Part shown: positions 38,264 through 56,586 of the stretch, in pieces
Position numbering within the stretch: the first letter of the stretch is position 1
Layout of the letters: each line of letters begins with the position of its first letter
Assembly (NCBI RefSeq): GCF_013376045.1
Contig: NZ_JABMJG010000005.1
Coordinates: forward strand, 1-64,000
Source of the DNA: Variovorax sp. SG517
Lineage (GTDB): Bacteria > Pseudomonadota > Gammaproteobacteria > Burkholderiales > Burkholderiaceae_C
Length of the DNA: 64,000 nucleotides
Direction: 5' to 3'
Position numbers and translations under genes: made by a program
Notes under the pieces: model-generated
What the model was told of the DNA's origin: nothing
Seen by the model: only the letters and a program-made list of their open reading frames with translations
Database searches by the model: none

Positions 38264-39463
38264 TCAGTGCGCGCCCGAGACGACCACCGGAATCTCGGTG
38301 GCCGGCGGCGTGTTGCGGCTGCGGCCGCAGCGCACGATGCCGTCGATCATCACCATGCCCACGCCCGGGATGTCGCCGAGCTGCACGCTCTCGAGCAGGC
38401 CCGGCGCCGGCGAATGCTGCGCGCGGTCCATGAAGACGAAGTCGGCGGCACGGCCCGTTTCGATGAGGCCGCAGTTGAGCTTGCGGATCTTCGCGGTGTT
38501 GCCGGTCGCGAAGCAGAACACCAGCTCGGCCGGGATGTTCGCAATGGACGACAGCATCGCCACCATGCGCAGGATGCCCAGCGGCTGCACGCCCGAGCCC
38601 GCCGGGCCGTCGGTGCCGAGGATCACGCGGTGCGGGCACTTGAGTTCCAGCGCGGCCTTCGCCGCCGCGATGGCTACCTTCTCGTTGCCGTTGTGCACGA
38701 TCTCGATGGCGCGCGAGCTCTTCTCGCACAGCTCGCACACATGCGCCTCGGGCAGCGAGGTGTGGCCGCCGTTGATGTGGCCGATGACGTCGGCGTCGGC
38801 CTCGAGCACCACGTCCTTGTCGATCAGGCCCGAGCCCGGAATCGACGGGCCGCCGGTGTGGATCGTGCTCTGGATGCCGTACTTGCGCGCCCAGGCCACC
38901 ATCTCCTTGGCCTCGTAGCCGGCCTTGACCGAGCCCAGGCCCACTTCGCCGAGCAGGCCCACGCCGGCCTCGGCGAGTTCCTTGAAGTCGCTCTCGACCA
39001 TGCCCTTCTCGATGACGGGCGCGCCCGCCAGAACCTTCACGCCGCCGGGACGGAAGTTGTCGAAGGCGCGCTGCGCGGTGATGGCCAGCGCCTTCAGGCC
39101 AACGATGTCCTTCGGTCGGCCGGGCAGGTGCACCTCGCCGGCGGAAATCATCGTCGTCACGCCGCCGTGCATGGTGGAGTCGATCCAGCCGAGCTGGCCC
39201 TGGCGCGGCGTCCAGTCGCCGAACACCGGGTGCACGTGGCTGTCGATCAGGCCGGGCGCGACGCAGGTCTTCTTCGCGTCGATGACGGTGGCGGCGCCTT
39301 CGAAGTCGCAGTCCTTTTCCTTGCCGACCGCCACGATCAGGCCGTCGTTCACGACGATGGTGTCGGCGTCGAGGATGGGCTTGTCGATGTCGCCCGAGAG
39401 CAGCAGCCCGATGTTCTTTATGACGACCTTGCCCGACTTGCCGCCGGCTGCGATTTCTGCCAT
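38264..39463 (-). CDS. Enamidase (6-oxo-tetrahydronicotinate hydrolase)
   Basis: A 399-residue amidohydrolase-superfamily enzyme. The strand reading GKVVIKNIGLLLSGDIDKPI, then TTMISAGEVHLPGRPKD and QSTIHTGGPSIPGSG, closely resembles enamidase of Eubacterium barkeri as I remember its sequence; that enzyme opens 1,4,5,6-tetrahydro-6-oxonicotinate to 2-formylglutarate. Metal ligands His76 and His78 are in LIDSHVHP; others lie in GEVGLG, HTGG, HINGG and GTDGPAGSG. It is the last gene of the fpr-tetR-enamidase operon and starts inside the tetR 3' end (46-base overlap), with a GAGGA ribosome site. Context with 6-hydroxynicotinate reductase supports the assignment; a dihydropyrimidinase-like activity is the alternative. 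Confidence 0.8.
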   Translation of the reverse strand: MAEIAAGGKSGKVVIKNIGLLLSGDIDKPILDADTIVVNDGLIVAVGKEKDCDFEGAATVIDAKKTCVAPGLIDSHVHPVFGDWTPRQGQLGWIDSTMHGGVTTMISAGEVHLPGRPKDIVGLKALAITAQRAFDNFRPGGVKVLAGAPVIEKGMVESDFKELAEAGVGLLGEVGLGSVKAGYEAKEMVAWARKYGIQSTIHTGGPSIPGSGLIDKDVVLEADADVIGHINGGHTSLPEAHVCELCEKSSRAIEIVHNGNEKVAIAAAKAALELKCPHRVILGTDGPAGSGVQPLGILRMVAMLSSIANIPAELVFCFATGNTAKIRKLNCGLIETGRAADFVFMDRAQHSPAPGLLESVQLGDIPGVGMVMIDGIVRCGRSRNTPPATEIPVVVSGAH

Positions 39464-40197
39464 TTCGATGTGTCCTCGTGGGATGGGGTGGAGTTGTTCT
39501 CTTCGTCCTGCGGCTCGTCGGCGTCGGCGCGCACGGTGCGCAGCAGCGTCTCGATCACGAAGTCTTCCCAGTGCGCGATCGCCTCGGGCGACTCCAGCGG
39601 CTCCCCGAGGAAGGCGGTGAGCGTGTGCCGGTTGGAGGTGTAGAAGTAGCCCGTGGACGCGATCAGCAGGTAGATGTCGCGCGCCACCAGGTCCTTGCGG
39701 AACAAGCCCTTCGAGGCGCCGCTCGCCAGGATCTCCGCGATGATCGCCACCGCGCGCGACGAATATTCGCGGGCGCGCAGCGACTTCGAAATGTGCCGGC
39801 CCTTGTGCAGGTTCTCGGTGTTCAGCAGCGTGACGAACTCGGGGTTCTTGCGGTAGTAGCCCAGCACGAAGCGGATGACTTCGGTGAGCGCGTCCACCGG
39901 CCGCGAGGTGTCGAGCGCGATGGCGGCCTCGGCGTCGTCCATGCGCTGGTAGATGCCTTCGAGCACTGCAATGAAGAGGCCTTCCTTGCTGCCGAAGTAG
40001 TAGTAGATCATCCGGTCGTACGACTTCGCGGCCTTGGAGATCTTCTCCACGCTGCCGCCGTCGTAGCCGTACTTGGCGAAGACCTTGGTCGCGGCCTTCA
40101 GGATGCTGTCGCGCGTGGCCTGGGCAGCCGCTTCGCGCACGCCCGTGCGGCGCTGCGGCTTGGGCTTGTGTGAGGCGGAGCGGCTGTTGTCGGCCAT
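39418..40197 (-). CDS. TetR-family regulator of the nicotinate cluster
   Basis: A 259-residue TetR-type protein, longer than average because of a basic N-terminal extension (SHKPKPQRRTGVREAAAQAT) and a Ser/Lys-rich tail. The DNA-binding domain reads FAKYGYDGGSVEKISKAAKSYDRMIYYYFGSKEGLF. The C-terminal domain is of the TetR_C type found near catabolic genes. It is co-transcribed with fpr and the enamidase and so probably represses the divergent fpr/hnr promoters; the repeated TGTAG sites at 41183-41220 are candidate operators. The ligand is presumably nicotinate or a pathway intermediate (inference). Confidence 0.85.
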   Translation of the reverse strand: MADNSRSASHKPKPQRRTGVREAAAQATRDSILKAATKVFAKYGYDGGSVEKISKAAKSYDRMIYYYFGSKEGLFIAVLEGIYQRMDDAEAAIALDTSRPVDALTEVIRFVLGYYRKNPEFVTLLNTENLHKGRHISKSLRAREYSSRAVAIIAEILASGASKGLFRKDLVARDIYLLIASTGYFYTSNRHTLTAFLGEPLESPEAIAHWEDFVIETLLRTVRADADEPQDEENNSTPSHEDTSKWQKSQPAASRARSS

Positions 40198-40228: not shown

Positions 40229-41002
40229 TTACTTCTCTGCGAAGGCGCGCTCGACGACGTAGTCGCCGGGCGTCGAGGTGTTGCCTTCCTTGAAGCCGCG
40301 CTTTTCCAGGATGTGCTTCAGGTCCACCAGCAGGCCGGGGCTGCCGCACAGCATGACGCGGTCTTCCTCGACGTTCAGCGGCGGCAGGCCCAGGTCGTCG
40401 GTGAGCTTGTTGCTCTCGATCAGGTCGGTGATGCGGCCCTGGTTGCGGAACTCCTCGCGCGTGACCGTGGGGTAGTACAGCAGCTGCTTCTCGATCATCT
40501 CGCCCAGGAACTCGTGCTTGGGCAGGTGGTCGGTCACGAGGTCGTGGTAGGCCAGCTCGTCGACCTGGCGCACGCCGTGCACCAGGATGACCTGCTCGAA
40601 CTTCTCGTAGGTGTCCGGGTCGCGGATGATGCTCATGAACGGTGCGAGGCCGGTGCCGGTGCCGAACAGGTACAGGCGCTTGGCCGGCAGCGTGTAGTCG
40701 ATCAGCAGCGTGCCCGTGGGCTTGCGGCCTACGATGATGGTGTCGCCCACCTGGATGTGCTGCAGCCTCGAGGTCAGCGGGCCGTCTTCCACCTTGATGC
40801 TCAGGAACTCGAGATGCTCCTCGTAGTTCGGGCTCACGATGCTGTAGGCGCGCAGCAGGGGCTTGTTGTTGACCTTCAGGCCGATCATCGTGAAATGACC
40901 GTTCGAGAAGCGCAGGGCCGGGTCGCGCGTGGTGGTGAAGGTGAACAGGCGATCGGTCCAGTGGTGGACGCTCAGGACGCGTTCTTCGCTGAATGCACTC
41001 AT
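40229..41002 (-). CDS. fpr: Ferredoxin--NADP+ reductase
   Basis: A 257-residue FAD enzyme of the bacterial subclass I/Fpr type, moving electrons between NADPH and ferredoxin or flavodoxin. The FAD-binding RAYSIVSPNYEEHLEF and NADP-binding LFGTGTGLAPFMSIIRD motifs are clear, and the protein ends DYVVERAFAEK, with the aromatic or hydrophobic tail typical of the class. It leads the operon with tetR and the enamidase and faces 6-hydroxynicotinate reductase, a ferredoxin-dependent enzyme in the anaerobic precedent. It may therefore supply that reductase, though it may equally serve general redox needs. No ferredoxin gene is in the cluster. Confidence 0.88.
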   Translation of the reverse strand: MSAFSEERVLSVHHWTDRLFTFTTTRDPALRFSNGHFTMIGLKVNNKPLLRAYSIVSPNYEEHLEFLSIKVEDGPLTSRLQHIQVGDTIIVGRKPTGTLLIDYTLPAKRLYLFGTGTGLAPFMSIIRDPDTYEKFEQVILVHGVRQVDELAYHDLVTDHLPKHEFLGEMIEKQLLYYPTVTREEFRNQGRITDLIESNKLTDDLGLPPLNVEEDRVMLCGSPGLLVDLKHILEKRGFKEGNTSTPGDYVVERAFAEK

Positions 41003-41166
41003 ACGGAACTCAAGAGTTGGTTGGTAACAGGGGAGGTTGGCTGAGCCTGCGTGCACGCCTTTGGGGCGAAAGCCGCCGGCCGGCTCCGAACCCTCCATTG
41101 TCGTTGGTCGGAGAAAACCCGATGAACACCGCTAGAAAACACCATTGCAAGCATCGGGCCCGTTTG

Positions 41167-41220
41167 CTACATTGACCTTTGATGTAGTGAATGCAACATG
41201 AAAGTGTAGGGAATGCTACA
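41167..41220. promoter_or_regulatory. Operator-like repeats in the fpr-hnr divergent region
   Basis: The 323-bp gap 41003-41325 holds three related elements. CTACAT (41167-41172) and ATGTAG (41182-41187) are inverted. TGTAGTGAATGCAACA (41183-41198) and TGTAGGGAATGCTACA (41205-41220) are near-identical, 22 bp apart (two helical turns), and the second has TGTAG/CTACA arms. They would suit a TetR dimer bound in tandem. No firm -35/-10 pair could be assigned; the rest of the gap is featureless apart from codon-like fragments. Confidence 0.55.
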
Positions 41221-41325: not shown

Positions 41326-42939
41326 ATGACAGAACACACCAAGACAGACGGCCTCCCCGGCATGGACATGCCCGTGGTGGCCGAAGCCGGCAGCAGTGCC
41401 TTCGGCAAGGCACCGCCGCGCAACGAGCGCATGAGCACGGCCAAGGTCGAGTGCAACGCCTGCCCGGTGCTGTGCCAGATCTCCGATGGCCGCACCGGCG
41501 CCTGCGACCGCTACGCCAATAAAGAGGGCGTGCTGGTGCGGGTCGATCCCGTCGTGCTGCTGCGCCGAACCGTCGAGAGCGAGAAGCCCGCGCTCGTGCC
41601 CTTCGACCGCCCCGGCGCCGATTCTTCCGATGCCGCCCCCGACTGGAACGGCGACCTGCTGCATGCCGACGAAGTCTTCGTCACCGGCGTGGGCTCCTCC
41701 ACCACCTACCCCGACTACAAGCCCGCGCCCTTCATCGTGGCTTCCAAGGCCCAGGGCGTGGACATGGTCACCGTCGTCACCGAAGGCATCTTCAGCTACT
41801 GCAGCTTCAAGGTGAAGATCGACACCGACCGCTTCCTCGGCCCCGAGCAGGCCAACGTGCGCTACCGCGGCGAGGTCGTGGGCCACGTCACCACGGCCGA
41901 ATACGGCTCGCAGATGCTCTCGCTCGGCGGCGTGCACCACCTCACCGGCGGCAGCAAGAAGGAAGGCCGCATGACGGCCGAGCTGATGCAGCTGCTGGGC
42001 AACAAGAAGGCGGTGGAGTGCACCATCGACGGCGGCTCCACCCTCGTCATTCAGGCGGGCAAGGCGCCCATCGTCAACGGCGTGGAAGAGCAGCGCATGC
42101 GCGTGGGCTGCGGCTCGGCCGCGGTCGGCATCTTCGCGCGCCAGTTCGCGGGCGTGGCCGACGAGGTGGTGGTGGTCGACGACCACATCACCGGCGTGCT
42201 CACCGAGCACCAGGCCGGCCGCTGCCTCGACATGGCGCCCTCGGGTATCCAGATGCTGGGGCGCAAGTCCACGCCGGGGCGCTACTTCCAGGTGGCGAAC
42301 CCGGGCAACGGCTGGGGCGGCACCGACATCGCCGATCCGCTCGCGATCATCGAAGGCTGGGAAGAGGGCGTCGCACGCCCCGGCATGCGCCTGCTCATGA
42401 CGTCGACCACCGGCGAGCATGCCCAGTGGTATGTGCTCGACGACGCGCTCAAGCCCGTCGAACAGCCGATGCCGCCGGAGGTGAAGCGCATCGTCGATCG
42501 CATCGGCGAGAACTGCGAACCCTCGCTGTGCACGGTGCTGTTCCTGGGTGGTGCGGGCGGCAGCCTGCGCGCGGGCGTCACCGAGAACCCGGTGCTGCTC
42601 ACGCGCGCCATCAAGCGCGCGCTAGTCAACGTCACCTGCGGCGGCGCGCCGGCCTACGTATGGCCCGGCGGCGGCATCACCGTGATGGCCGACGTCATGC
42701 GCATGCCCGACAACAGCTTCGGCACCGTGCCCACGCCCGCCATCGTCGCACCCATCGAGTTCAGCATGCGGCGCGACGACTACGAGGCGCTCGGCGGCCA
42801 CGTCGAACACATCTTCCCGCTCGAGCAGGCGCTCGCCCGCGGTGCATGGCAGGAAGACGGCGCACCGCTCGCGCGCCAATGGCTCGCGGCGGACGACGCC
42901 AACCCGTGGCCCTTGGGCCACGCCCCCATGCTGGGCTGA
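41326..42939 (+). CDS. hnr: 6-Hydroxynicotinate reductase
   Basis: A 537-residue iron-sulfur protein resembling 6-hydroxynicotinate reductase of Eubacterium barkeri, which uses reduced ferredoxin to convert 6-hydroxynicotinate to 1,4,5,6-tetrahydro-6-oxonicotinate. The N-terminal ferredoxin-like site has cysteines 43, 46, 50 and 60 (CNACPVLC, then TGAC). Later conserved regions include GVGSSTTYPDYKPAPFI, EGIFSYCSFKVKIDTDR and TCGGAPAYVWPGGGI. ATG 41326 is chosen; an in-frame ATG at 41191 falls in the operator region. It leads the plus-strand operon and faces the fpr-tetR-enamidase operon, so its substrate and product both have enzymes nearby. The assignment rests on remembered similarity plus context. 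Confidence 0.8.
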   Translation: MTEHTKTDGLPGMDMPVVAEAGSSAFGKAPPRNERMSTAKVECNACPVLCQISDGRTGACDRYANKEGVLVRVDPVVLLRRTVESEKPALVPFDRPGADSSDAAPDWNGDLLHADEVFVTGVGSSTTYPDYKPAPFIVASKAQGVDMVTVVTEGIFSYCSFKVKIDTDRFLGPEQANVRYRGEVVGHVTTAEYGSQMLSLGGVHHLTGGSKKEGRMTAELMQLLGNKKAVECTIDGGSTLVIQAGKAPIVNGVEEQRMRVGCGSAAVGIFARQFAGVADEVVVVDDHITGVLTEHQAGRCLDMAPSGIQMLGRKSTPGRYFQVANPGNGWGGTDIADPLAIIEGWEEGVARPGMRLLMTSTTGEHAQWYVLDDALKPVEQPMPPEVKRIVDRIGENCEPSLCTVLFLGGAGGSLRAGVTENPVLLTRAIKRALVNVTCGGAPAYVWPGGGITVMADVMRMPDNSFGTVPTPAIVAPIEFSMRRDDYEALGGHVEHIFPLEQALARGAWQEDGAPLARQWLAADDANPWPLGHAPMLG

Positions 42940-42941: not shown

Positions 42942-43859
42942 ATGCCTGCCGAACGCACGGCGCTCGACAAGAGCCGCTGGCACTTCAACCACGGCCCGAT
43001 CGACATCGTGGCCGAGGCGCACGGCGACCCGTACGCCGTGGCCGCCGCGCACGACGCGGCGTGGGCGCGCTTCGTCCACGTGCTCGACGAGCTGGTGCAC
43101 GAGCTGCCGCTGCTGCGACTGCCCGTCACCGACAGGATGCGCCCGCGCAACGTGGTGGCGCGCCGCATGTGGGACGCCTGCGCTGCGTTCTCGCCGACCT
43201 TCATCACGCCGATGGCGGCGGTGGCCGGCTCCGTGGCGCAGGAGCTCATCGCCTTCTACGAGCGCCCCGGCGTCGAGCGCGCGTGGATCAACAACGGCGG
43301 CGACATCGCGCTGCATCTCGCGCCCGGGCAGTCCGCGCGCGTGGGCGTGTTCGCCGACATCGCGCGCTTCGACCTGCGCAGCCATCTCGCCGGCGAGGGC
43401 GGGATCCTCACCACCGACGGCCAGTTCGAGCTGCGCGCCGACCAGCCCGTGCGCGGCGTCGCCACCAGCGGCTGGCGCGGACGCAGCTTCTCGCTGGGCA
43501 TCGCCGACAGCGTGACGGTGCTGGCCGCCACCGCGGCTCAGGCCGACGCCGCGGCGACAGTGATCGCCAACGCCGTCGACGTGGACGACGAAGCCATCGC
43601 GCGCCGCCCCGCGAACGAGTGCAAGGACGACAGCGACCTGTGCGACACGCTCGTCACCGTCGACGTGCCCGCGCTGGCCCCCGCGCAGGTGCGCAGCGCA
43701 CTCGATACGGGCGCGGTGTGCGCCAAGGTCCTGCAAAAAGGCGGGCTCGTGTGGGCCGCTCTACTCGTTTGCCAGGGGCAGTGGAGACTTGTCGAGCCCT
43801 TATGCTCGAAGGCGCTCGGCACAGCGTTGCCCAGATCCGTTGGTTCAGTATTTGCTTAA
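42942..43859 (+). CDS. UPF0280/ApbE-like protein
   Basis: A 305-residue protein of the UPF0280 family, distantly related to ApbE, the FMN transferase that attaches flavin covalently to target proteins. Recognisable segments are ITPMAAVAGSVAQELIAFY, INNGGDIALHL and GVATSGWRGRSFSLG, the last matching the ApbE core. It starts 2 bases after hnr, implying tight coupling; a role in maturing the hnr flavin site is plausible but I saw no clear ApbE target motif in Hnr. It carries no signal peptide, so it acts in the cytosol. The C-terminal third (from about residue 210) is less conserved and has no known function. Confidence 0.75.
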   Translation: MPAERTALDKSRWHFNHGPIDIVAEAHGDPYAVAAAHDAAWARFVHVLDELVHELPLLRLPVTDRMRPRNVVARRMWDACAAFSPTFITPMAAVAGSVAQELIAFYERPGVERAWINNGGDIALHLAPGQSARVGVFADIARFDLRSHLAGEGGILTTDGQFELRADQPVRGVATSGWRGRSFSLGIADSVTVLAATAAQADAAATVIANAVDVDDEAIARRPANECKDDSDLCDTLVTVDVPALAPAQVRSALDTGAVCAKVLQKGGLVWAALLVCQGQWRLVEPLCSKALGTALPRSVGSVFA

Positions 43860-43880: not shown

Positions 43881-44522
43881 ATGATCGAAATCCGCCGCGT
43901 CTTCACCCATGTCGAGCACATCCACCACGAGTTCGGACCGCGCGCCGACACCCCGCTGGTGCGTGGTGCCATCGGCGCGGTGCTGACCAATCCGTTCGCC
44001 GGCCGCTACGAGCCCGACATCCTGCCGATGATGGCGCTGCTCGACCCGGTGGGCGTCGACATGGCGCACCGGCTGCACGCCGCCATGGACGTGCCGCTGG
44101 AGCGGATCGCCACCTACGGCAAGGGCGCCATCGTCGGCGCCGACGGCGAGCTGGAGCACGGTGCGCTGTGGCACGTGCCGGGCGGCTACGCCATGCGCGA
44201 ACTGCTGGGCTGGAAGGGCAGCCGCGCCGCCTACACCGCAGGCAAGGCTGAAGAGAAGACCGGCCAGCCCGGCAATGCGCTCTCGATCGTGCCCTCGACC
44301 AAGAAGGTCGGCCCGCCCGGCGCCGCGCTCGACGTGCCGCTGACCAACATCAACGCCAGCTACGTGCGCGGCCAGTTCGACGCCATCGAGGTGCGCGTGC
44401 CCGGCGCGCCGGCGGCCGACGAGATCGTCTTCATCCTCGCGATGAGCACCGGCTACCGCGTCCACGCACGCGTAGGTGGCCTGCTCGCCAAAGACATCAG
44501 CAAATGGGATGGCCTGCGCTGA
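43881..44522 (+). CDS. DUF1185 (amino acid synthesis family) protein, paralogue 1
   Basis: A 213-residue protein of DUF1185 (Pfam AA_synth). It opens IEIRRVFTHVEHIHHEFG and carries AIGAVLTNPFAGRYEPDILPMM, YGKGAIVGADGELEHGALW and ALDVPLTNINASYVRGQFDAIE. No biochemical function is established for the family. It lacks signal or membrane segments. It follows UPF0280 by 21 bases and precedes a second, clearly related copy, so the two may form a heteromeric complex. Position in a nicotinate cluster suggests a step after or around ring opening, but this is inference only. Confidence 0.8.
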   Translation: MIEIRRVFTHVEHIHHEFGPRADTPLVRGAIGAVLTNPFAGRYEPDILPMMALLDPVGVDMAHRLHAAMDVPLERIATYGKGAIVGADGELEHGALWHVPGGYAMRELLGWKGSRAAYTAGKAEEKTGQPGNALSIVPSTKKVGPPGAALDVPLTNINASYVRGQFDAIEVRVPGAPAADEIVFILAMSTGYRVHARVGGLLAKDISKWDGLR

Positions 44523-44558: not shown

Positions 44559-45143
44559 ATGACCGCCAACATCCGCAAGCTCGTAGTACAGGTCGATGAA
44601 ACCCGCCGCGAAATGGGCAAGGACATCACGCCGCCCACGCGCCGCGCCGTCGCCATCGCCGTGATCGAGAACCCCTACGCCGGCCGCTACAGCGAGAACC
44701 TCGACGACCTGATCGCCATCGGCGAGGAACTCGGCGCCCTTCTGGGTCAGAAGGCCGTGAAGGCGCTGAGCATCGAGCCCGGCCAGGCGCAGAGCTACGG
44801 CAAGGCCGCCATCGTCGGCGAGCGCGGCGAGCTCGAGCATGCCGCCGCCATCCTGCATCCCAAGCTGGGCGCGCCGCTGCGCGTGGCGGTCGAGAAGGGT
44901 GCGGCGCTCGTGCCCTCGGCCAAGAAGCAGGGCACGCTGGGCACCGCCATCGACGTGCCGCTGGGCCACAAAGACGCCGCCTTCGTGCGCAGCCATTTCG
45001 ACGCCGTCGAGGCTCGCGTGAGCGACGCCCCGCGCGCCAACGAGATCGTGGTGGCGGTGGCCGTCACCGACAGCGGCCGTCCTCTGCCGCGCATCGGCGG
45101 CCTGCAGGTCCATGAGATCAAGGGCGAAGACGGTCTTCGCTGA
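44559..45143 (+). CDS. DUF1185 (amino acid synthesis family) protein, paralogue 2
   Basis: A 194-residue relative of the preceding gene. Matching segments are RAVAIAVIENPYAGRYSENLD, YGKAAIVGERGELEHAAA, PSAKKQGTLGTAIDVPLGHK and RSHFDAVEARVSDAPRANEI. It is about 20 residues shorter, lacking the tail around the first copy's LLGWKGSRAAYT segment. A tandem duplication followed by divergence is the likely origin. AAGGAA precedes the start. It is followed by the first Liv-type binding protein gene after 70 bp. Function unknown; see the first copy. Confidence 0.8.
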   Translation: MTANIRKLVVQVDETRREMGKDITPPTRRAVAIAVIENPYAGRYSENLDDLIAIGEELGALLGQKAVKALSIEPGQAQSYGKAAIVGERGELEHAAAILHPKLGAPLRVAVEKGAALVPSAKKQGTLGTAIDVPLGHKDAAFVRSHFDAVEARVSDAPRANEIVVAVAVTDSGRPLPRIGGLQVHEIKGEDGLR

Positions 45144-45213: not shown

Positions 45214-46419
45214 ATGACCCCATTGCGTCACGTCTTCAGCGCCGCAGCCCTCGCAGCGCTGACCACTGCTCTCGTTCCCGCGCATGCGCAGGGCGTGATC
45301 AAGATCGGCGAAGTCAACAGCTACAAGGCCCAGCCCGCCTTCCTCGAGCCCTACAAGAAGGGCATGGAGCTGGCCGTCGAAGAGATCAACGCCAAGGGTG
45401 GCGTGAACGGAAAGAAGGTCGAGCTCATCATGCGCGACGACAACGCCAACCCCGGCGACGCCGTGCGCGTGGCCGAAGAACTGGTGGCGCGCGAGAAGAT
45501 CGACGTGCTCACCGGCACCTTCCTGTCGAACACCGGCCTGGCCGTGGCCGACTTCGCCAAGCAGAAGAAGATCTTCTTCCTGGCCGGTGAACCGCTGACC
45601 GACAAGATGACCTGGCAGGGCGGCAACGAATACACCTACCGCCTGCGTCCCGGCACCTACATGCAGGCCGCGATGCTGGTACCGGAAGCCGTCAAGCTCA
45701 AGAAGAAGCGCTGGGCCGTCGTGTACCCCAACTACGAATACGGCCAATCGGCCGTGGCCGCATTCAAGACACTGCTGAAGGCCGCGCAGCCCGACGTCGA
45801 GTTCGTCGCCGAGCAGGCGCCGCCGCTCGGCAAGGTCGACGCGGGCGCCGTCGCCCAGGCGCTGGCCGACGCCAAGCCCGATGCGATCTTCAACGTGCTC
45901 TTCGGCGCCGACCTCTCGAAGTTCGTGCGCGAAGGCAACACCCGCGGCCTCTTCAAGGACCGCTCGGTCGTCAGCGTGCTGACCGGCGAGCCCGAGTACC
46001 TCGATCCGCTGAAGGACGAAACGCCCAACGGCTGGATCGTGACCGGCTACCCCTGGTACGGCATCCAGACGCCCGAGCACAAGGCCTTCTTCCTCGCGTA
46101 CCACGCCAAGTACAACGATTACCCGCGCCTGGGCTCGGTGGTCGGCTACAGCATGATCAAGTCCGTCGCGGCCGGCGTGGTCAAGGCCAAGGGCACCGAA
46201 ACGCCGAAGCTCGTCGAAGCCTTCAAGGGCCTGCAGGTCGATACGCCGTTCGGCAAGATCAGCTACCGCGCCGAAGACCACCAGTCCACCATGGGCGCCT
46301 TCGTCGGCAAGACGAAGAACGAGAACGGCAAGGGCGTGATGGTCGACTACACCTACTTCGACGGTGCCAAGTTCCAGCCCTCCGCCGCCGACGTCAAGAA
46401 ATCGCGCGCCGCCGACTGA
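45214..46419 (+). CDS. Liv-type ABC transporter substrate-binding protein 1
   Basis: A 401-residue periplasmic binding protein of the branched-chain amino acid (Peripla_BP_6) class. The signal ends PAHAQGV near residue 26. GVIKIGEVNSYKAQPAFLEP, then GMELAVEEINAKGGVNGKKVEL, is family-typical. It is the first gene of the SBP1-livHM-livG-livF set and follows the DUF1185 genes in the same direction, so nicotinate or a related aromatic acid is a likely ligand, as this class often imports aromatic acids. AAGGAG precedes the ATG. A 222-bp gap with two dispersed repeats follows. Confidence 0.88.
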   Translation: MTPLRHVFSAAALAALTTALVPAHAQGVIKIGEVNSYKAQPAFLEPYKKGMELAVEEINAKGGVNGKKVELIMRDDNANPGDAVRVAEELVAREKIDVLTGTFLSNTGLAVADFAKQKKIFFLAGEPLTDKMTWQGGNEYTYRLRPGTYMQAAMLVPEAVKLKKKRWAVVYPNYEYGQSAVAAFKTLLKAAQPDVEFVAEQAPPLGKVDAGAVAQALADAKPDAIFNVLFGADLSKFVREGNTRGLFKDRSVVSVLTGEPEYLDPLKDETPNGWIVTGYPWYGIQTPEHKAFFLAYHAKYNDYPRLGSVVGYSMIKSVAAGVVKAKGTETPKLVEAFKGLQVDTPFGKISYRAEDHQSTMGAFVGKTKNENGKGVMVDYTYFDGAKFQPSAADVKKSRAAD

Positions 46420-46423
46420 TATG

Positions 46424-46520
46424 GCTCGCCCCCAGGCTGCGCGCACTTCGTGTCGCTTCGCCAACCCCCTTCCGGGGGCAACACCAACGGCCCGGCAAAG
46501 CCGGTTCCGTGGTGTTCCCC
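46424..46520 (-). repeat. Dispersed ~100-bp repeat, family A, copy 3
   Basis: A full-length copy in reverse orientation relative to copy 1, starting CTCGCCCCCAGGCTGCGCGC and ending with the AAAGCCGGTTCCGTGGTGTT block. It fills most of the gap between SBP1 and livHM. Confidence 0.88.
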
Positions 46521-48576: not shown

Positions 48577-49379
48577 CTTCCCCCAATAGCTCCAACGTAC
48601 CTCTGCTGAAGGTCGAGAACCTCGGCAAGTCCTTCGGCGGCGTGAAGGCCGTGGACGGCATCAGCTTCGAACTGCATGCCGGCGAACTGCTGGCCCTCAT
48701 CGGCCCCAACGGCGCCGGCAAGTCGACCACCTTCAACATGGTCAACGGCCAGCTCAAGGCCGACCAGGGCTCGATCCTGTTCGACGGGCACGAGCTCGTC
48801 GGCCAGAAGCCGCGCGCCATCTGGCGCAAAGGCGTGGGCCGAACCTTCCAGATCGCCGAGACCTTCGCCTCGCTCACCGTGGCCGAGAACGTGCAGATGG
48901 CGCTGCTGTCGCACGACGGCAAGCTGTTCTCGATGTGGCGCCGCGCGGCTGAACACAAGCGCGAGGAAGCGCTCGCGCTGCTCGACCAGGTCGGCATGAA
49001 GTCGCAGGCCGACCGACCCTGCAGCGTGCTCGCCTACGGCGACGTGAAGCGCGTCGAGCTCGCCATCGCGATGGCCAACTCGCCCAAGCTGCTGCTGATG
49101 GACGAGCCCACCGCCGGCATGGCGCCCAAGGAGCGCAATTCGCTCATGGCGCTGACCAAGGATCTCGTCATCCAGCGCGGCCTGGCCGTGCTGTTCACGG
49201 AGCACAGCATGGACGTGGTGTTCGCGTACGCCGACCGCATGATCGTGCTCGCGCGCGGTCGCCTCATCGCGCAGGGAAAGCCGCTCGAGATCCGCGACCA
49301 CCCCAAGGTGCAGGAGGTGTATTTCGGAAGCGGCAAGACCTTCGAGAAGAAAGCCGAAGCAGTTGGAGAAGCCGCATGA
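48573..49379 (+). CDS. ABC transporter ATP-binding protein, LivG type
   Basis: A 268-residue ATPase with Walker A GPNGAGKSTTFN, Q-loop FQIAETFASLTV, a rather diverged signature (LAYGDVKRVELAIAMA in place of LSGGQ), Walker B LLLMDEPTAGMA and switch histidine in FTEHSMDVVF. This is the normal LivG pattern. It pairs with LivF to power the fused LivHM permease. ATG overlaps the livHM stop, and its own stop overlaps livF, so the three are translationally coupled. Confidence 0.93.
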   Translation: MTSPNSSNVPLLKVENLGKSFGGVKAVDGISFELHAGELLALIGPNGAGKSTTFNMVNGQLKADQGSILFDGHELVGQKPRAIWRKGVGRTFQIAETFASLTVAENVQMALLSHDGKLFSMWRRAAEHKREEALALLDQVGMKSQADRPCSVLAYGDVKRVELAIAMANSPKLLLMDEPTAGMAPKERNSLMALTKDLVIQRGLAVLFTEHSMDVVFAYADRMIVLARGRLIAQGKPLEIRDHPKVQEVYFGSGKTFEKKAEAVGEAA

Positions 49380-50110
49380 GCACACACGAACCTTTGTTGC
49401 AGGCCAAGGCCCTGTGCGCCTGGTACGGCGCCGCGCAGATCCTCTACGACGTCGATCTCGAAGTGCGCCGCGGCGAAGTGGTCGCGCTCATGGGCCGCAA
49501 CGGCGCGGGCAAGTCGACCACGCTGAAGGCGCTGATCGGCATGCTGGCCAAGCGCCGCGGCGCCGTGCGCTTCCTGGGCCACGACATCTCCAAGAGCGAG
49601 CCGCACCACGCAGCGCGACTGGGCCTGGGCTTCGTGCCTGAAGACCGCCGCGTGTTCACCGACCTCACGGTGATGGAGAACCTCGAGGTCGGAAAGCAGC
49701 CCGCGCGCCGCTGGGCCGACGGCAGCGACGCGCCGCTATGGACGCCCGAGCGCCTGTTCAAGCTCTTCCCCAACCTCGGCGAGATGCCGAACCGTCCGGG
49801 CGGGCGCATGAGCGGTGGCGAGCAGCAGATGCTCACGGTCGCGCGCACGCTCATGGGCAACCCGTATCTCGTGCTGCTCGACGAACCGTCCGAGGGCGTG
49901 GCGCCGGTGATCGTCGAGCAGATGGCCAACATGATCCTGGAGCTCAAGGCGCAGGGCGTGAGCATCCTGCTGTCGGAGCAGAACATGCACTTCGCCGAAC
50001 TGGTGTCCGACCGCGCCTACGTGCTCGAGAAGGGCCAGATCCGCTATCACGCCACGATGGCCGAGCTCGCGGCGAACGACGAAGTTCGCCGCGCCTACCT
50101 CAGCGTCTAG
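49376..50110 (+). CDS. ABC transporter ATP-binding protein, LivF type
   Basis: A 244-residue ATPase with Walker A GRNGAGKSTTLKAL, signature MSGGEQQMLTVARTL, Walker B LVLLDEPSEGVA and the switch region ILLSEQNMHFA, all typical of LivF. An insert (RRWADGSDAPLWTPERLF, about residues 107-124) lengthens the helical domain slightly. It ends the transporter core, after which a family A repeat separates it from the nicotinamidase gene. Substrate assignment follows the cluster: nicotinate or an analogue. Confidence 0.93.
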   Translation: MSTHEPLLQAKALCAWYGAAQILYDVDLEVRRGEVVALMGRNGAGKSTTLKALIGMLAKRRGAVRFLGHDISKSEPHHAARLGLGFVPEDRRVFTDLTVMENLEVGKQPARRWADGSDAPLWTPERLFKLFPNLGEMPNRPGGRMSGGEQQMLTVARTLMGNPYLVLLDEPSEGVAPVIVEQMANMILELKAQGVSILLSEQNMHFAELVSDRAYVLEKGQIRYHATMAELAANDEVRRAYLSV

Positions 50111-50272: not shown

Positions 50273-50998
50273 ATGCATCGCAGAACCCTCGTGAAATCCG
50301 CCGCCGCCTTCGGGCTGGCCGGTGGCCTCGGCAGTGTCGCCTTCAACGCCTTCGCGGCCGGCAAGATCAAGCCCGGCGCCAAGGCGGCGCTGATCGTGGT
50401 CGACGTGCAGAACTGCTTTCTCGACGGCGGCACGCTGGCGGTGAAGGGCGGCAACGAGGTCATCCCGGTGATCAACGCGCTCGCGCCGGCCTTCGAGAAC
50501 ATCGTGGTCACGCAGGACTGGCACACGGCGGGCCATGCATCTTTCGCCAGCACCTACAGCGGCAAGAAGCCTTTCGAGACCACCAAGCTCAGCTACGGTA
50601 CGCAGGTGCTGTGGCCCGATCACTGCGTGCAGGGCACCGACGATGCGGCGCTCGGCAAGGACCTGAAGGTGCCCACCGCGCAGCTCGTCATCCGCAAGGG
50701 CTTCCACAAGGACATGGACAGCTACTCGGCCTTCGAGGAAGCCGACCACAAGACGGCCACCGGCCTGGCCGGCTACCTGAAGGCGCGCGGCATCAAGACG
50801 GTGTTCGTCACCGGCCTGGCCACCGACTTCTGCGTGGCCTGGACCGCGATGGACGCGCGCAAGGCTGGCTTCGAGGCCTACGTGATCGAGGACGCCACGC
50901 GCGGCATCGACCTCAACGGCTCGCTGGCCGCCGCGTGGAAGCAGATGACGGCCAAGGGCGTCAAGCGCATCCAGTCCGCGGACATCCAGACCGCCTGA
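50273..50998 (+). CDS. Nicotinamidase (isochorismatase superfamily) with twin-arginine signal
   Basis: A 241-residue hydrolase converting nicotinamide to nicotinate and ammonia. Metal ligands are Asp82, His84 and His88 in TQDWHTAGH, as in PncA. The catalytic triad is Asp44 (VVDVQNCF), a lysine in VIRKGFHKD and Cys187 in LATDFCVAW. Unlike cytosolic PncA, it starts MHRRTLVKSAAAFGLAGGLG, a twin-arginine-like signal, suggesting folded export to the periplasm. There it would convert nicotinamide to nicotinate for the adjacent importer. AGGAG precedes the start. Export is inferred from the signal only. Confidence 0.88.
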   Translation: MHRRTLVKSAAAFGLAGGLGSVAFNAFAAGKIKPGAKAALIVVDVQNCFLDGGTLAVKGGNEVIPVINALAPAFENIVVTQDWHTAGHASFASTYSGKKPFETTKLSYGTQVLWPDHCVQGTDDAALGKDLKVPTAQLVIRKGFHKDMDSYSAFEEADHKTATGLAGYLKARGIKTVFVTGLATDFCVAWTAMDARKAGFEAYVIEDATRGIDLNGSLAAAWKQMTAKGVKRIQSADIQTA

Positions 50999-51046: not shown

Positions 51047-52216
51047 ATGAAGCTTTCCATCACAAGGCGCGCCATGGTCGCGGGTGGCGCCGCCCTTGCA
51101 CTCGGCCCTGGGCTGCTGCGTTCGGCGCGCGCGGACAACGGCACGAACGGTGTGACTGACACCACCATCCGCATCGGCCAGTCGGCCGTGTTCAGCGGGC
51201 CGGCCAAAGACTTCGGCATCGACTACCGCGCGGGCATCAAGCTCTACTTCGACAGGGTCAACAAGTCGGGTGGCGTGAACGGCCGCAAGATCGAGCTGGT
51301 CACCTACGACGACGCCTACGACCCCGCGAAGACGGCCGTCAACACCGCCAAGCTGATCGACGAGGACAAGGTCTTCGCGCTCACCGGCTACGTGGCCACC
51401 GGCAATCTCGCCGCGGCGATGCCGCTCGCCGAGAAGGCCGGCGTGCCGATGTTCGCGCCGCTGGTGGGCACCACGTCGTTCCGCACCAAGGTCAACCGCT
51501 ACCTGTTCCACGTGCGCGCGGGCTACGACCTGGAGCTGCGCAAGATCATCAGCCACCTCTCGACCATCGGCATCCAGTCGATCGCGGTGGTCTACCAGGA
51601 CAGCGCCTTCGGCAAGTCGAACCTCGCCACCTGCGAGGAGCTCGCGGCCGACTACAAGGTGAAGGTGCTCAAGACCTTCCCGCTGGCCATCGCGGCCGAG
51701 GACGCGAAGCAGGTCGTCACCGGCCTCGCCGACGCGAAGCCGGGCGCGGTCGTGATGATCATGGCCGGGCGCATGGTGGAAGTGTTCATGCGCGACTACC
51801 GCGCCAGCGCCGTGGGTTCGCCGCTGTACACGCTGTCGGTCGGCATCACCGATGCGGCCGGCTCGGCCAAGCGGCTCGACGGCAAGCTCGCGGGCCTGGT
51901 CACGGCCAGCATCGTGCCGCCGCCGCAGGCGCTGCGCGTGCCCATCGTGGCCGACTACCAGCGCGACCGCGCCGAGTTCGGCGAGAAGATCGACAGCTAC
52001 ACCGCGCTGGAGGGCTACATCGTCGCGCGCGTCATGGTCGAGGGCCTGCGCCGCGCGGGCAAGACGCCCACGCGCGACAGCTTCATCGCCGGGCTGGAGA
52101 GCATCGGCAGCACGCGCTTCGGCGAATTCCCCATCGAGTACAGCGCGAAGAACCACAACGGCTCGACCTTCGTCGATCTGGAGATATACGCCCGTGACGG
52201 CCAGCTGCGGCGCTGA
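51047..52216 (+). CDS. Liv-type ABC transporter substrate-binding protein 2
   Basis: A 389-residue periplasmic binding protein of the Peripla_BP_6 class, different from the one at 45214. It opens with a twin-arginine-like signal SITRRAMVAGGAALALGPG. The body contains IRIGQSAVFSGPAKDFGIDY, LYFDRVNKSGGVNGRKIEL and FALTGYVATGNLAAAMPLAE. It is in the same operon, after the nicotinamidase, so the importer seems to be served by two receptors with different ligands or affinities. The nicA start GTG lies inside its last codons, 23 bases before its end. Confidence 0.88.
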   Translation: MKLSITRRAMVAGGAALALGPGLLRSARADNGTNGVTDTTIRIGQSAVFSGPAKDFGIDYRAGIKLYFDRVNKSGGVNGRKIELVTYDDAYDPAKTAVNTAKLIDEDKVFALTGYVATGNLAAAMPLAEKAGVPMFAPLVGTTSFRTKVNRYLFHVRAGYDLELRKIISHLSTIGIQSIAVVYQDSAFGKSNLATCEELAADYKVKVLKTFPLAIAAEDAKQVVTGLADAKPGAVVMIMAGRMVEVFMRDYRASAVGSPLYTLSVGITDAAGSAKRLDGKLAGLVTASIVPPPQALRVPIVADYQRDRAEFGEKIDSYTALEGYIVARVMVEGLRRAGKTPTRDSFIAGLESIGSTRFGEFPIEYSAKNHNGSTFVDLEIYARDGQLRR

Positions 52217-52694
52217 GCCGCTGCGCCTGCTGGTCAACGGCCGGGCGCAATCGATAACGGGCGTGCCGCGCGAGGCGACGCTGCTTCACCTGCTGCGCAA
52301 CGACCTGGGGCTGAACGGCCCCAAGTACGGCTGTGGTCTGGGACAGTGTGGCGCCTGCACCGTGCACGTGGACGGCGTGGCCGCGCGCTCGTGCGTGATT
52401 CCGGCGCACGGCGTGGCGGGGCGTGCCATCACCACGCTCGAAGGCCTGGGCTCGCGCGGCAGCTGGCACCCAGTGCAGGCCGCCTTCGAGGATGCGCAGG
52501 CCGCGCAGTGCGGCTATTGCCTCAACGGCATGGTGATGCAGGCGGCGGCGCTGCTCGCGCGCGATCCGCAGGCGAGCGAAGTGCGCATCCGCGCCGAGCT
52601 GTCGGGCAACCTGTGCCGCTGCGGCACGCACATCGAGATCCTCGACGCGGTGCAGCGCGCGGCGGTGCGCATGCGCGCGGAGGCGAGCGCATGA
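52194..52694 (+). CDS. nicA: Nicotinate dehydrogenase small [2Fe-2S] subunit
   Basis: A 166-residue subunit of the xanthine-oxidase family, corresponding to NicA of Pseudomonas putida. It carries two [2Fe-2S] sites: the plant-type ferredoxin cluster with cysteines 47, 52, 55 and 67, and the helical-bundle cluster with cysteines 106, 109, 141 and 143 (QCGYC, LCRC). It passes electrons from the molybdenum centre of NicB to the cytochrome part. I use GTG 52194, which has GGAG 11 bases upstream and overlaps the previous gene by 23 bases; no ATG fits the family start. The role on nicotinate is inferred from the cluster. Confidence 0.82.
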   Translation: MTASCGAEPLRLLVNGRAQSITGVPREATLLHLLRNDLGLNGPKYGCGLGQCGACTVHVDGVAARSCVIPAHGVAGRAITTLEGLGSRGSWHPVQAAFEDAQAAQCGYCLNGMVMQAAALLARDPQASEVRIRAELSGNLCRCGTHIEILDAVQRAAVRMRAEASA

Positions 52695-52830: not shown

Positions 52831-55800
52831 ATGACGCGCCGCGCCGACCTGCCTCAGACGCGCGCCGAGTTCCTTGCCGCCACCGGCGTGCTGCTGGTGC
52901 TGCGCGAGACCCCGCCGCCGCCAGCCCCGGCCAAGGGTCAGCCTGCCTTCATCGCCAGCAACCCCGCCGAAGGCGACGAGGTGCTGCTTGCCGTGTGGGA
53001 CGACGGCAGCGCCTCCGCGCTCAACGGACACGTCGACCTCGGCACCGGCATCCAGACGGCGCTGGGCCAGATCGTGGCCGAGGAGCTCGATCTCGGCATG
53101 CCCTGCGTGCGCGTGATGCTCGGCGACACCGCGCGCGCGCCCAACCAGGGCGCGACCATCGCCAGCGCCTCGATCCAGATCCACGCACAGCCGCTGCGGC
53201 TGGCCGCGGCGCAGGCGCGCGCATGGCTGCTGGCGCGTGCGGCCGAGCGCCTGGGCGTGGCCGAGGATGCGCTGCAGGTGCGCAACGGCGTGGTGCGCGT
53301 CGCGCAGGCGCCGGACCGGCATGTCAGCTACGCCGACCTCGTGGCCGGCCAGCGGACCGTGCTGCGGCTCGATCCGAACGCGAAGCCCAAGGACCCGGCC
53401 GACTACCGCGTCGTCGGTACGCGGCAGGCGCGCGTCGACATCCCGGCCAAGCTCGCGGGCGAACTCGTGTTCGTGCACGACATGCGCGTGCCCGGCATGC
53501 TGCACGGCCGCGTGGTGCGCCCGCCGTATGCGGGCGCGGACCACGGCGAGTTCATCGGCAACACGCTGGAGTCGGTCGACGAGTCGTCGATCGCGCACAT
53601 CCCCGGCATCCGCGCGGTGGTCGTCATCCGCGACTTCGTCGGCATCGTGGCCGAACGCGAGGAACACGCCGAGCAGGCGCTGCGCGAGCTGCGCGTGAAG
53701 TGGAAGCCATGGCCCGGCATGCCCGACCTCGGCGACCTCGCGAAGGCCCTGCGCGACAACCCCTCCACGCAGCGGTTGCTGGTCGACGAAGGCGATGTCG
53801 ACGGCGCCATCGCATCGGCGGCGCAGCCCATGCACCGCACCTACGTGTGGCCCTACCAGATGCATGCGTCCATCGGCCCGTCGTGCGCTCTGGCCGAATG
53901 GCAGCCCGCCGACGGCAGCGCCATGCAGCTGCGCTGCTGGGCCGGCTCGCAGAATCCGCATGTGCTGCGCGCCGATCTTGCGAAGCTCATGGGCGTGGAG
54001 GATGTGCAGGTCGACGTGGTGCGCATGGAGGCCGCGGGCTGCTACGGCCGCAACGGCGCCGACGACGTGGCCGCCGACGCGGCGCTGCTTGCGCGCGCGG
54101 TGGGCGCACCGGTGCGCGTGCAGCTCACGCGCGAGCAGGAGCATGCGTGGGAGCCCAAGGGCGCCGCGCAGCTGATGGAAATCGACGGCGGCCTCATGGC
54201 CGACGGCAGCGTCGCCGCCTACGACTTCGAGACCTCGTACCCGTCGAACGGCGCGCCCACGCTCGCGCTGCTGCTCACGCGCACCATCGAGCCGGTGGCG
54301 CAGGCCTTCGAGATGGGCGACCGCACGGCGCGTCCGCCCTACAGCTACGACAACCTGCGCGTGAAGGTCAACGACATGGCGCCGATCGTGCGCGCCTCGT
54401 GGCTGCGCGGCGTGTCGGCGCTGCCGAGTTCGTTCGCGCACGAGTCGTACATCGACGAGCTGGCGACGGCGGCGGGCGTCGACCCGGTGCAGTTCAGGCT
54501 GCGGCATCTGAAGGACCCGCGCGCCGTCGAGCTCGTGCAGGCCACCGCGCAGAAGGCCGGCTGGCGCATGCGCACCGGGCCGCAGGAGAACGCCGACGGT
54601 GGGCTCGGCGAGGGCGGCGACATCCTCTTCGGCCAGGGCTTCGCCTATGCGCGCTACGTCCACAGCAAGTGGCCGGGCTTCGGCGCGGCGTGGGCCGCGT
54701 GGGTGGCCGACGTGGAGGTCAACCGCAAGACCGGCGAGGTGCACGTGCGCCGCGTGGTGGTGGGGCATGACGCCGGCCTGATGATCAACCCGGCGGGCGT
54801 CGAGCACCAGGTGCACGGCAACGTGATCCAGACGACGAGCCGGGCGCTCAAGGAGCGGGTGGAGTTCGCGCCGCAACAGCAGCAACAGCAAGGCACGGCG
54901 GCGGGCGCGCAGCTGCCGGGCGTGCTGCCTTCCGGCGTGGTCGCGAGCCGCGAGTGGGGCGGCTACCCGATCATCAACTTCCGCGAAGTGCCGGTGATCG
55001 AGGTGATGCACATGCCGCGGCCCGGCGAGCCTTCGCTGGGCGCGGGCGAGTCGTCGTCGGTGCCCGGCACGGCGGCGATTGCGAATGCGATCTTCGATGC
55101 GACGGGCGTGCGGTTCCGCTCGCCGCCTTTCACGCCGGAGACAGTGCTGGCCGAATTGAACCGGGGTTCGCTCCCTCCCCCCCTGGGGGAGGGCGGGGAT
55201 GGGGGCATACGGCGCTCAAATGGCGACGCTGCCGTGCCCCCATCCCAACCTTCGCCCAAGGGGGGAAGGAGCAATGCGCCATGGCCTCGGCGCAAGGGCG
55301 TATGGGCGACGGGCGCGGCGCTGGTCGTCGGCGGCATCGGCGTCATCGCGGGACTGCTCGGCTGGCGCTCGGCCATCGCGCCGGTGTCGCTCACCGCGCC
55401 GGTCTACAGCCAGGCCACCATCGAGCGCGGCCGTGTGCTCGCCGCGGTGGGCGACTGCGCCGTGTGCCACACCGCACCCGGCGGCACGGCCAACGCGGGC
55501 GGCCGTGCCATGGACACGCCCTTCGGCACGCTCTACACCACCAACCTCACGCCGGATGCGGAAACGGGCCTCGGCCGCTGGTCCTTCAGCGCCTTCCAGC
55601 GCGCGATGCGCGAGGGCGTCTCGCGCGACGGCCACTACCTGTATCCCGCGTTCCCCTACACCGCCTTCGCGAAGACCAGCGACGACGACCTGCACGCGCT
55701 GTACGCGTACTTCATGTCGCTGCCTGCCGTGCGCGCGGAAACGCCGAAGTCCGAGCTCAAGTTCCCGTTCAGCATCCGGCCGCTGATGGCCGGCTGGAAC

Positions 55801-56586
55801 GCGCTCTTCCACGATCCGGCGCCGATGCAGCCCGTGGCCACGCAGAGCGCGGAGTGGAACCGCGGCGCATACCTCGTCAATGGCCTCGGGCATTGCGGCG
55901 CCTGCCATACGCCGCGCAACGCGCTCGGCGCGGAGCAGGGCGGCAGCGCCTTCCTCTCGGGCGCGATGGTCGATGGCTGGGAGGCGCCGGCGCTCACGCA
56001 GCTGGCGTCGAAGTCGGCGGTGCCGTGGGATGCCGACGAGCTCTACCGCTACCTGCGCCACGGCCACACGCAGCGCCACGGCATCGCGGGCGGGCCGATG
56101 GCCGAGGTGGTGCGCGAGCTCGCGCAGGTGCCCGATGAGGACATCCGCGCGATGGCGACCTACCTCGGCTCGTTCAATCCCCCGCCTGTCGCGCAGCCCG
56201 CAGCCGTCGCGCAGCAGGTGGTCGACAACGCCGCACGCACGCAGGGGCAGCTGCTGGGCCCCGCACAGCGCATGTTCGACAGTGCCTGCGCCTCCTGCCA
56301 CCACGACGGCAACGGCCCCACGCTGCTCGGCGTCAACACGCCGCTCGCGCTCAACAGCAACCTCACCAGCGCGCGGCCCGACAACCTGCTGCGCACCATC
56401 CTCGACGGCGTGCGCGAACCCGCGAGCCGCGACATCGGCTTCATGCCCGGCTTCCGCGAGGTGCTCGACGACCGGCAGATCGCCGAACTCGCCGGCTACA
56501 TGCGCGCGCGCTTCGCGCCGCAGGAGCCGGCGTGGACCAACCTGCCCGCCGAGGTGGCGCGCGTGCGCGCGACGCCGGGGCACTGA
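52831..56586 (+). CDS. nicB: Nicotinate dehydrogenase large subunit, molybdopterin plus cytochrome c
   Basis: A 1251-residue fusion corresponding to NicB of Pseudomonas putida, which hydroxylates nicotinate at C6 and passes electrons to cytochrome c instead of NAD. Residues ~1-770 are the aldehyde oxidase/xanthine dehydrogenase molybdopterin domain, ending with the catalytic glutamate motif GAGESSSVPGTAA. A linker with a membrane helix (VWATGAALVVGGIGVIAGLL) leads to three c-type heme sites, CAVCH, CGACH and CASCH. The linker around residues 780-814 is encoded by a family B repeat. Start ATG 52831 uses a ribosome site from another family B element. Substrate identity is inferred; isoquinoline- or aldehyde-oxidising relatives share this design. 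Confidence 0.85.
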   Translation: MTRRADLPQTRAEFLAATGVLLVLRETPPPPAPAKGQPAFIASNPAEGDEVLLAVWDDGSASALNGHVDLGTGIQTALGQIVAEELDLGMPCVRVMLGDTARAPNQGATIASASIQIHAQPLRLAAAQARAWLLARAAERLGVAEDALQVRNGVVRVAQAPDRHVSYADLVAGQRTVLRLDPNAKPKDPADYRVVGTRQARVDIPAKLAGELVFVHDMRVPGMLHGRVVRPPYAGADHGEFIGNTLESVDESSIAHIPGIRAVVVIRDFVGIVAEREEHAEQALRELRVKWKPWPGMPDLGDLAKALRDNPSTQRLLVDEGDVDGAIASAAQPMHRTYVWPYQMHASIGPSCALAEWQPADGSAMQLRCWAGSQNPHVLRADLAKLMGVEDVQVDVVRMEAAGCYGRNGADDVAADAALLARAVGAPVRVQLTREQEHAWEPKGAAQLMEIDGGLMADGSVAAYDFETSYPSNGAPTLALLLTRTIEPVAQAFEMGDRTARPPYSYDNLRVKVNDMAPIVRASWLRGVSALPSSFAHESYIDELATAAGVDPVQFRLRHLKDPRAVELVQATAQKAGWRMRTGPQENADGGLGEGGDILFGQGFAYARYVHSKWPGFGAAWAAWVADVEVNRKTGEVHVRRVVVGHDAGLMINPAGVEHQVHGNVIQTTSRALKERVEFAPQQQQQQGTAAGAQLPGVLPSGVVASREWGGYPIINFREVPVIEVMHMPRPGEPSLGAGESSSVPGTAAIANAIFDATGVRFRSPPFTPETVLAELNRGSLPPPLGEGGDGGIRRSNGDAAVPPSQPSPKGGRSNAPWPRRKGVWATGAALVVGGIGVIAGLLGWRSAIAPVSLTAPVYSQATIERGRVLAAVGDCAVCHTAPGGTANAGGRAMDTPFGTLYTTNLTPDAETGLGRWSFSAFQRAMREGVSRDGHYLYPAFPYTAFAKTSDDDLHALYAYFMSLPAVRAETPKSELKFPFSIRPLMAGWNALFHDPAPMQPVATQSAEWNRGAYLVNGLGHCGACHTPRNALGAEQGGSAFLSGAMVDGWEAPALTQLASKSAVPWDADELYRYLRHGHTQRHGIAGGPMAEVVRELAQVPDEDIRAMATYLGSFNPPPVAQPAAVAQQVVDNAARTQGQLLGPAQRMFDSACASCHHDGNGPTLLGVNTPLALNSNLTSARPDNLLRTILDGVREPASRDIGFMPGFREVLDDRQIAELAGYMRARFAPQEPAWTNLPAEVARVRATPGH
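55170..55272. repeat. Family B inverted repeat inside the nicB reading frame
   Basis: GCTCCCTCC...GGGGATGGGGGCA is followed, after 25 bases, by TGCCCCCATCCC...GGGGGGAAGGAGC. The element is read through in frame as a Pro/Gly/Ser linker (SLPPPLGEGGDGG and PSQPSPKGGRS) between the molybdopterin and cytochrome parts of NicB. Confidence 0.85.

Follow-up and report, generated by a model that had tools for sequence, protein, structure and literature searches.

Could a cytochrome-linked nicotinate hydroxylase and the reductive enzymes of a nicotinate fermentation serve one route in a Variovorax, and what would the poorly understood proteins encoded among them do there? The question is raised by a divergent catabolic cluster at 38264-56586 of the stretch analysed here, the first 64,000 nucleotides of contig NZ_JABMJG010000005.1 of Variovorax sp. 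SG517 (hereafter the window), whose genome comprises 7.42 Mb in 31 contigs. The minus strand holds the genes for an enamidase (Ena), a TetR-family regulator and a ferredoxin-NADP reductase (Fpr). The plus strand carries, in this order, the genes for 6-hydroxynicotinate reductase (Hnr), a UPF0280 protein, two PF06684 proteins, a LIV-type ABC system, a nicotinamidase, a second binding protein, NicA and NicB. A preliminary description of the sequence had placed its named genes in one divergent locus, and family matches and coordinates put all of them there on the strands it gave; however, its list missed the TetR gene, the UPF0280 gene, both PF06684 genes and a pair of tandem palindromes. Based on the comparison with relatives, the genomic case is strong that three poorly understood families, namely UPF0280/COG2122, PF06684 and a hydantoinase/oxoprolinase type, have specific jobs in the nicotinate pathway, which gives three widely annotated unknowns a concrete and testable place in a known pathway.

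The hnr gene is located at 41326-42939 (+), and the UPF0280 gene follows at 42942-43859 (+). Among 398 Pseudomonadota genomes, with Hnr called at E<=1e-20 and UPF0280 at its cut-off, Hnr was found in 32 and UPF0280 over the cut-off in 32, and the two sets are identical; note that in each genome no more than the best three to five candidates were scored. Counted by genus, which ignores kinship, UPF0280 occurs in 15 of 15 genera with Hnr versus 0 of 197 without it. The coordinates place the two genes together in all 32 genomes, with a MarR gene in between in genome G167, while sub-threshold UPF0280 matches of 20-22 bits without Hnr were seen in G293 and G373, which belong to one genus. We also counted gene presence in 80 named relatives of the cluster. 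UPF0280 lies 3' of hnr on the same strand in all 80 loci, with gaps of 6-174 bases in 78 of them and of 558 and 661 bases in the other two, and all 30 loci fetched from the phylum sample have it, the window counted as one. Some copies look damaged, that is, Hnr is split in G016 and UPF0280 has an in-frame stop in G386. On plasmids, Hnr was found on 26 records and UPF0280 on 27, which are the same 26 and a Hydrogenophaga plasmid. On the latter, UPF0280 stands beside IS1071, behind what is left of an Hnr C-terminus, a frame of 44 residues whose local score of 63 exceeds the highest of 1000 shuffles (48). It should also be mentioned that UPF0280 occurs at four places on Hydrogenophaga pBPS33-1, and that the copies at 3108-4040 and 13917-14849 are part of repeated units linked to IS1071, together with genes for Rieske oxygenases and a remnant of the C-terminus of Hnr.

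What, then, would UPF0280 do for Hnr? From the linkage with hnr we infer that it is a dedicated maturation factor of Hnr, and perhaps it installs a covalent flavin. The fold test assigned the ApbE fold to UPF0280, which shares this fold and the NNGGD, ATSG and ADxxAT motifs with the ApbE/Ftp flavin transferases and with DVU1097 (2o34). The scores against PF02424 stay below its cut-off of 25.6 bits (17.6 bits for the window protein, 21.3 bits for the best of five), and the genome also carries an ApbE of its own. Against a role in flavin transfer, the window protein has no His in the interval from ATSG to ADxxAT. In addition, none of 43 Hnr rows, which represent 31 distinct genes, contains the target motif of ApbE, Dxx[ST]GA[ST]; the nearest look-alike is DHITGV, present in all 43. 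In ApbE, the catalytic His follows TSG, and a His directly after TSGR is found in only 3 of 16 UPF0280 rows (two distinct genes). Thus, unlike in the ApbE/Ftp system, the catalytic His is not conserved in UPF0280, and the target motif is missing from Hnr; this His is important in ApbE according to the available part of PMC12052999. Both absences favour an alternative, in which UPF0280 would act on Hnr by iron-sulfur or persulfide chemistry and not by flavin attachment. In the same direction, COG2122 is required together with the ferredoxin-linked DUF39 system, for which a persulfide role has been proposed (PMC5764234, available part). We regard this alternative as a real possibility, although a doubtful one. 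A homology between Hnr and DUF39 was considered and rejected, as HcyBio gave no match to Hnr at E<=10. A weak GCV_T_C match at about residues 160-195, seen in five of five Hnr proteins (E 0.003-0.06), is below the cut-off and was not used.

The second family was met at the ring-opening step. In the window, the enamidase gene is located at 38264-39463 (-) and encodes a protein of the amidohydrolase family, residues 11-390 of which align nearly full length to the solved E. barkeri enamidase 2VUN (E=4e-110), with the HxH, GEVGLG, HTGG and GTDGP motifs present; the enamidase named in the preliminary description is therefore borne out against the characterised enzyme. Orthologues at E<=1e-120 were found in 11 of 299 genomes, all 11 Hnr-positive. 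At E<=1e-40, the enamidase was found in 18 of the 32 Hnr genomes and not found in the other 14. HyuB, a member of the hydantoinase/oxoprolinase family, was first met beside hnr in Neorhizobium. Its orthologues, called at E<=1e-180 across the 398 genomes and sharing 65-82% identity, occur in 16 of the 32 Hnr genomes, and the next best matches drop to 45%. All 14 enamidase-less Hnr genomes are among the 16, and the remaining two, G123 and G194, have both; this HyuB type was found in those 16 genomes only (0 of the 366 genomes without Hnr). The 26 Hnr plasmids comprise 16 with enamidase and 10 with HyuB, none with both and none with neither, but they are not independent, because 12 of them are from Sulfitobacter. 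The switch between enamidase and HyuB recurs within families f38 and f55, and HyuAB near hnr, with no enamidase found, is seen in L118, L122, L125, L158, L161 and other Hnr loci. The simplest reading is a predicted non-orthologous replacement, in which HyuAB, a lactam hydrolase whose family suggests ATP dependence, takes the place of the enamidase. This replacement is weakened by the location of HyuB: only 7 of the 16 genomes have it about 20 kb or less from hnr, and in the other 9 it lies elsewhere. The weakest HyuB (65%), in genome G139, lies 1.4 Mb from hnr. In addition, 8 of 18 HyuB plasmids have no Hnr on the same record (six from S. medicae, one each from R. rhododendri and Rhizobium sp. 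Q54), and one in-frame stop each was noted in HyuB of G194 and G197 and in the enamidase of G322 and G339. At the entry step, L116, L119, L120, L121, L125 and L126 have, directly upstream of hnr and instead of NicAB, a Mo-hydroxylase of the XDH type that comes with a FAD subunit of its own. The entry enzyme does not predict the ring opener, since G386 combines NicAB with HyuAB, and G008 and G339 combine the XDH-type enzyme with the enamidase.

The third family is PF06684, with the annotation 'amino acid synthesis'. The two paralogues at 43881-44522 (+) and 44559-45143 (+) score 211 and 238 bits, respectively, against a Pfam gathering score of 27 bits, and paralogue 2 has a very close solved relative in SPO0826 (2qtp, E=3.5e-86). 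PF06684 is present in 31 of the 32 Hnr genomes, the exception being G139. It also occurs next to ring-opening genes without Hnr. For the plasmid records with an enamidase-like gene and no Hnr, tblastn within the fetched stretches confirmed PF06684 directly upstream of that gene in five of nine, namely those of Agrobacterium vitis, Mariluticola, Mesorhizobium, Thermomicrobium and Shinella, and not in the records of Prescottella, two Rhodococcus and Haloarcula; two of the five also have a gene for a succinate-semialdehyde dehydrogenase in the neighbourhood. In S. medicae and R. rhododendri, PF06684 adjoins HyuAB with no Hnr nearby, and in G123 and G194 a PF06684 pair adjoins an enamidase gene, with hnr located on a different contig. 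TgnF, a PF06684 protein of trigonelline breakdown, is cited in the available part of PMC7913881 as stimulating semialdehyde oxidation, although no such stimulation could be shown for the homologue HcdD by the same citing authors. Because PF06684 adjoins enamidase-like or HyuAB genes even without Hnr, and given the semialdehyde link of TgnF, the family probably belongs to ring opening or to the step after it, which may be the decarboxylation of 2-formylglutarate or the hydrolysis of an enamine. The amino-acid label came from the fold and the genome context, including branched-chain-type transporter genes (PMC2954203, available part), and such transporter genes belong to these nicotinate clusters. 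Consequently, PF06684 is more likely a catabolic ring-opening partner than an amino-acid synthesis protein; SPO0826, TgnF and HcdD are of the same family as the window pair. As a separate observation, in two roseobacter loci the PF06684 pair and the importer are separated by a gene for a Rieske oxygenase (L157, 15607-16677; L159, 15555-16625).

Is the route itself new? In the maleamate pathway, the nic cluster of Pseudomonas putida has nicC, nicX, nicD, nicE and nicF. The Variovorax cluster resembles it in the NicAB architecture and differs in that no maleamate-branch gene is among the cluster genes scanned, as the preliminary description had stated. A partial search of the genome gave no match to PF02073, the family linked to NicX. 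One gene of the Amdase/maleate-isomerase family was found on another contig (C11) and rejected as NicE, since its neighbours, judged by eye from their first residues, look like other families. The nicotinate fermentation of Eubacterium barkeri, reportedly described by Alhapel in 2006, also has homologues of Hnr and the enamidase. The later fermentation genes were not identified in the Variovorax cluster, which has a cytochrome-linked NicAB in contrast to the four-subunit dehydrogenase NdhFSLM of E. barkeri (PMC10331938, available part). The preliminary description proposed a hybrid of the NicAB reaction and the reductive route. The reading of the pathway stands, as respiratory hydroxylation, ferredoxin-driven reduction and hydrolytic opening fit every named gene; however, the hybrid is not a discovery, because the available part of PMC3511419 (2012) reports a conserved cluster of the Azorhizobium type, with genes for the first three steps and an importer, in Azorhizobium, Bradyrhizobium, Rhodopseudomonas and SG-6C. 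In the same source, the SG-6C homologue is 42% identical to its E. barkeri counterpart, and nicotinate breakdown in Azorhizobium runs onward through glutarate; a comparison of like kind is found in the available part of PMC9304392. The clusters of Azorhizobium caulinodans and SG-6C share with that of Variovorax the first-three-step genes, an Hnr homologue, an ABC importer, conserved proteins of unknown function and the reductive route via tetrahydro-6-oxonicotinate, here predicted from the genes. The Variovorax cluster differs from them, as far as the available part of PMC3511419 goes, in its TetR gene and its in-cluster nicotinamidase with a Tat-like leader. The window cluster is an ordinary Variovorax member of a known pathway.

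The layout of the cluster is not due to chance. The closest Hnr relatives (93-99% identity) are in Variovorax genomes, and Hnr, UPF0280, Fpr and PF06684 copy 1 are each present in 80 of the 80 relatives. The enamidase is found in 78, the remaining two being short contigs. NicA (72 of 80) and NicB (60 of 80) are missed at the ends of contigs or fetched stretches, and the second binding protein occurs in only 36. The nicotinamidase gene is present in 69; among the 11 misses, three loci (L043, L077 and L078) are without it although nicA follows. The identity of the genes by family, their conserved order and their co-occurrence are established, whereas the substrates and the path of the electrons are inferred. 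Nicotinamide would be deamidated, probably in the periplasm, and nicotinate would be taken up through the LIV-type system. NicAB would convert it to 6-hydroxynicotinate and hand the electrons on to the respiratory chain via its cytochrome c domain. Hnr, probably supplied from NADPH by Fpr and ferredoxin, would reduce the ring to 1,4,5,6-tetrahydro-6-oxonicotinate, which the enamidase would open to 2-formylglutarate and ammonia, with the PF06684 pair working at this step or just after; later breakdown is presumably encoded elsewhere in the genome.

Several observations weigh against this assignment. The closest solved relatives of NicB are cytochrome or large subunits of aldehyde, glucose, fructose and alcohol dehydrogenases, so its substrate is assigned by context, while the medium subunit of E. 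barkeri nicotinate dehydrogenase matches it at E=3.5e-27. The identity of Hnr comes from annotated relatives that carry the name 6-hydroxynicotinate reductase, not from the E. barkeri sequence, and no ferredoxin is among the cluster genes scanned. Searches with Hnr gave no Pfam or NCBIfam match at E<=0.001 and, by sequence, no relative in the PDB, and the AF2 model of Hnr, built from 41 close relatives, is poor (pLDDT 48). Could the cluster, then, mainly degrade another pyridine, such as a substituted nicotinate, with nicotinate as a side substrate? SG-6C channels 6-chloronicotinate into the same route (PMC3511419, available part), and the substrate range varies between nicotinate dehydrogenases (PMC10331938, available part). 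However, a nicotinamidase within the cluster in 69 relatives, and the lack of an extra entry enzyme among the scanned cluster genes, make this improbable. Nicotinamide and nicotinate catabolism of the known Azorhizobium type, including the roles proposed for UPF0280 and PF06684, is the reading that we hold with considerable confidence.

These results are compatible with a broader scheme, which we put forward only tentatively. UPF0280/COG2122 may be a second kind of ApbE-fold protein modifier with a single client, attaching the covalent flavin to Hnr at a site other than the canonical one, as COG2122 of anaerobes may do for the DUF39 homocysteine enzyme. Around an invariant Hnr-UPF0280 pair, the pathway would be modular, with entry by NicAB or the XDH-type enzyme, opening by the enamidase or the ATP-dependent HyuAB, and handling of the ring-opened formyl acid by PF06684. 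Accepting a homocysteine-synthesis role as for Desulfovibrio COG2122, with the place beside hnr incidental, is hardly credible, since that role, although the genetically supported one found for the family (PMC5764234, available part), finds its partner DUF39/HcyBio in 0 of the 398 genomes, UPF0280 over its cut-off in exactly the Hnr genomes, and the sole plasmid exception behind an Hnr remnant. In the modular scheme, UPF0280/COG2122, unsettled beside DUF39, would gain one client enzyme with an unusual cofactor, and the hydantoinase/oxoprolinase type a predicted substrate, tetrahydro-6-oxonicotinate. In a literature search with most subscription papers outside its coverage, UPF0280 was not found, alone or with ApbE or flavin, among the matches listed, 'hydantoinase' was not among the matches listed for nicotinate terms with hydantoinase, and papers on DUF1185/PF06684/BB2672 and on '6-hydroxynicotinate reductase' were sparse.

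The remaining parts of the cluster are as follows. The gene of the TetR-family regulator (39418-40197, -; PF00440 and PF17938) overlaps ena, and fpr is located at 40229-41098 (-; PF00970/PF00175; PRK10926 143.7 bits, below the cut-off of 390). The fpr-hnr gap contains the palindromes TGTAG-N6-CAACA and TGTAG-N6-CTACA, 22 bp apart, at 41183-41220. When a site is defined as TGTAG-N6-CNACA or TGTNG-N6-CTACA, this gap holds one or more in all 80 relatives and two at exactly 22 bp in 51, against a single site elsewhere in these loci (1.6 Mb); the relatives sharing the site are not independent, because they are mostly Comamonadaceae. The density of sites is far above background, and they probably form the operator of the adjacent TetR regulator. 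The importer as a whole spans 45214-50110 on the plus strand. It consists of an ABC substrate-binding protein (45214-46419, Peripla_BP_6), a fused LivH-LivM permease (46642-48576, BPD_transp_2 in two stretches) and ATPases of the LivG type (48573-49379, ABC_tran and BCA_ABC_TP_C) and LivF type (49376-50110, ABC_tran). The nicotinamidase named in the preliminary description, at 50273-50998 (+), scores 183 bits with PRK11609 (cut-off 174). It begins MHRRTLVKSAAAFGLAGG..., a twin-arginine-like leader, and 67 of the 69 relatives with the gene show a loose RR pattern close to its start; the enzyme is possibly periplasmic, ahead of the importer. The second substrate-binding protein (51047-52216, +, Peripla_BP_6) is followed by the NicA-like subunit (52194-52694, +, start codon uncertain), which carries both 2Fe-2S domains (Fer2 and Fer2_2). 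The NicB-like subunit (52831-56586, +) has the Mo-cofactor domains MoCoBD_1/2, a hydrophobic stretch ahead of the heme part and a C-terminal triheme cytochrome c domain (Cytochrom_C), with CxxCH at residues 876, 1022 and 1153.

Downstream of nicB, an FAH-family gene is located at 56683-57864 (E=3.5e-133 to 9kkt). It was rejected as a pathway step, since it follows nicB in one close relative (G379) and was not found near nicB in G207. Elsewhere in the window, 16559-25902 carries urocanase, an amidohydrolase and a homocysteine S-methyltransferase-family gene and is perhaps a histidine-utilisation region, and type VI secretion genes (ImpA_N, VipA and VipB) are located at 58017-61295, shortly past the cluster.

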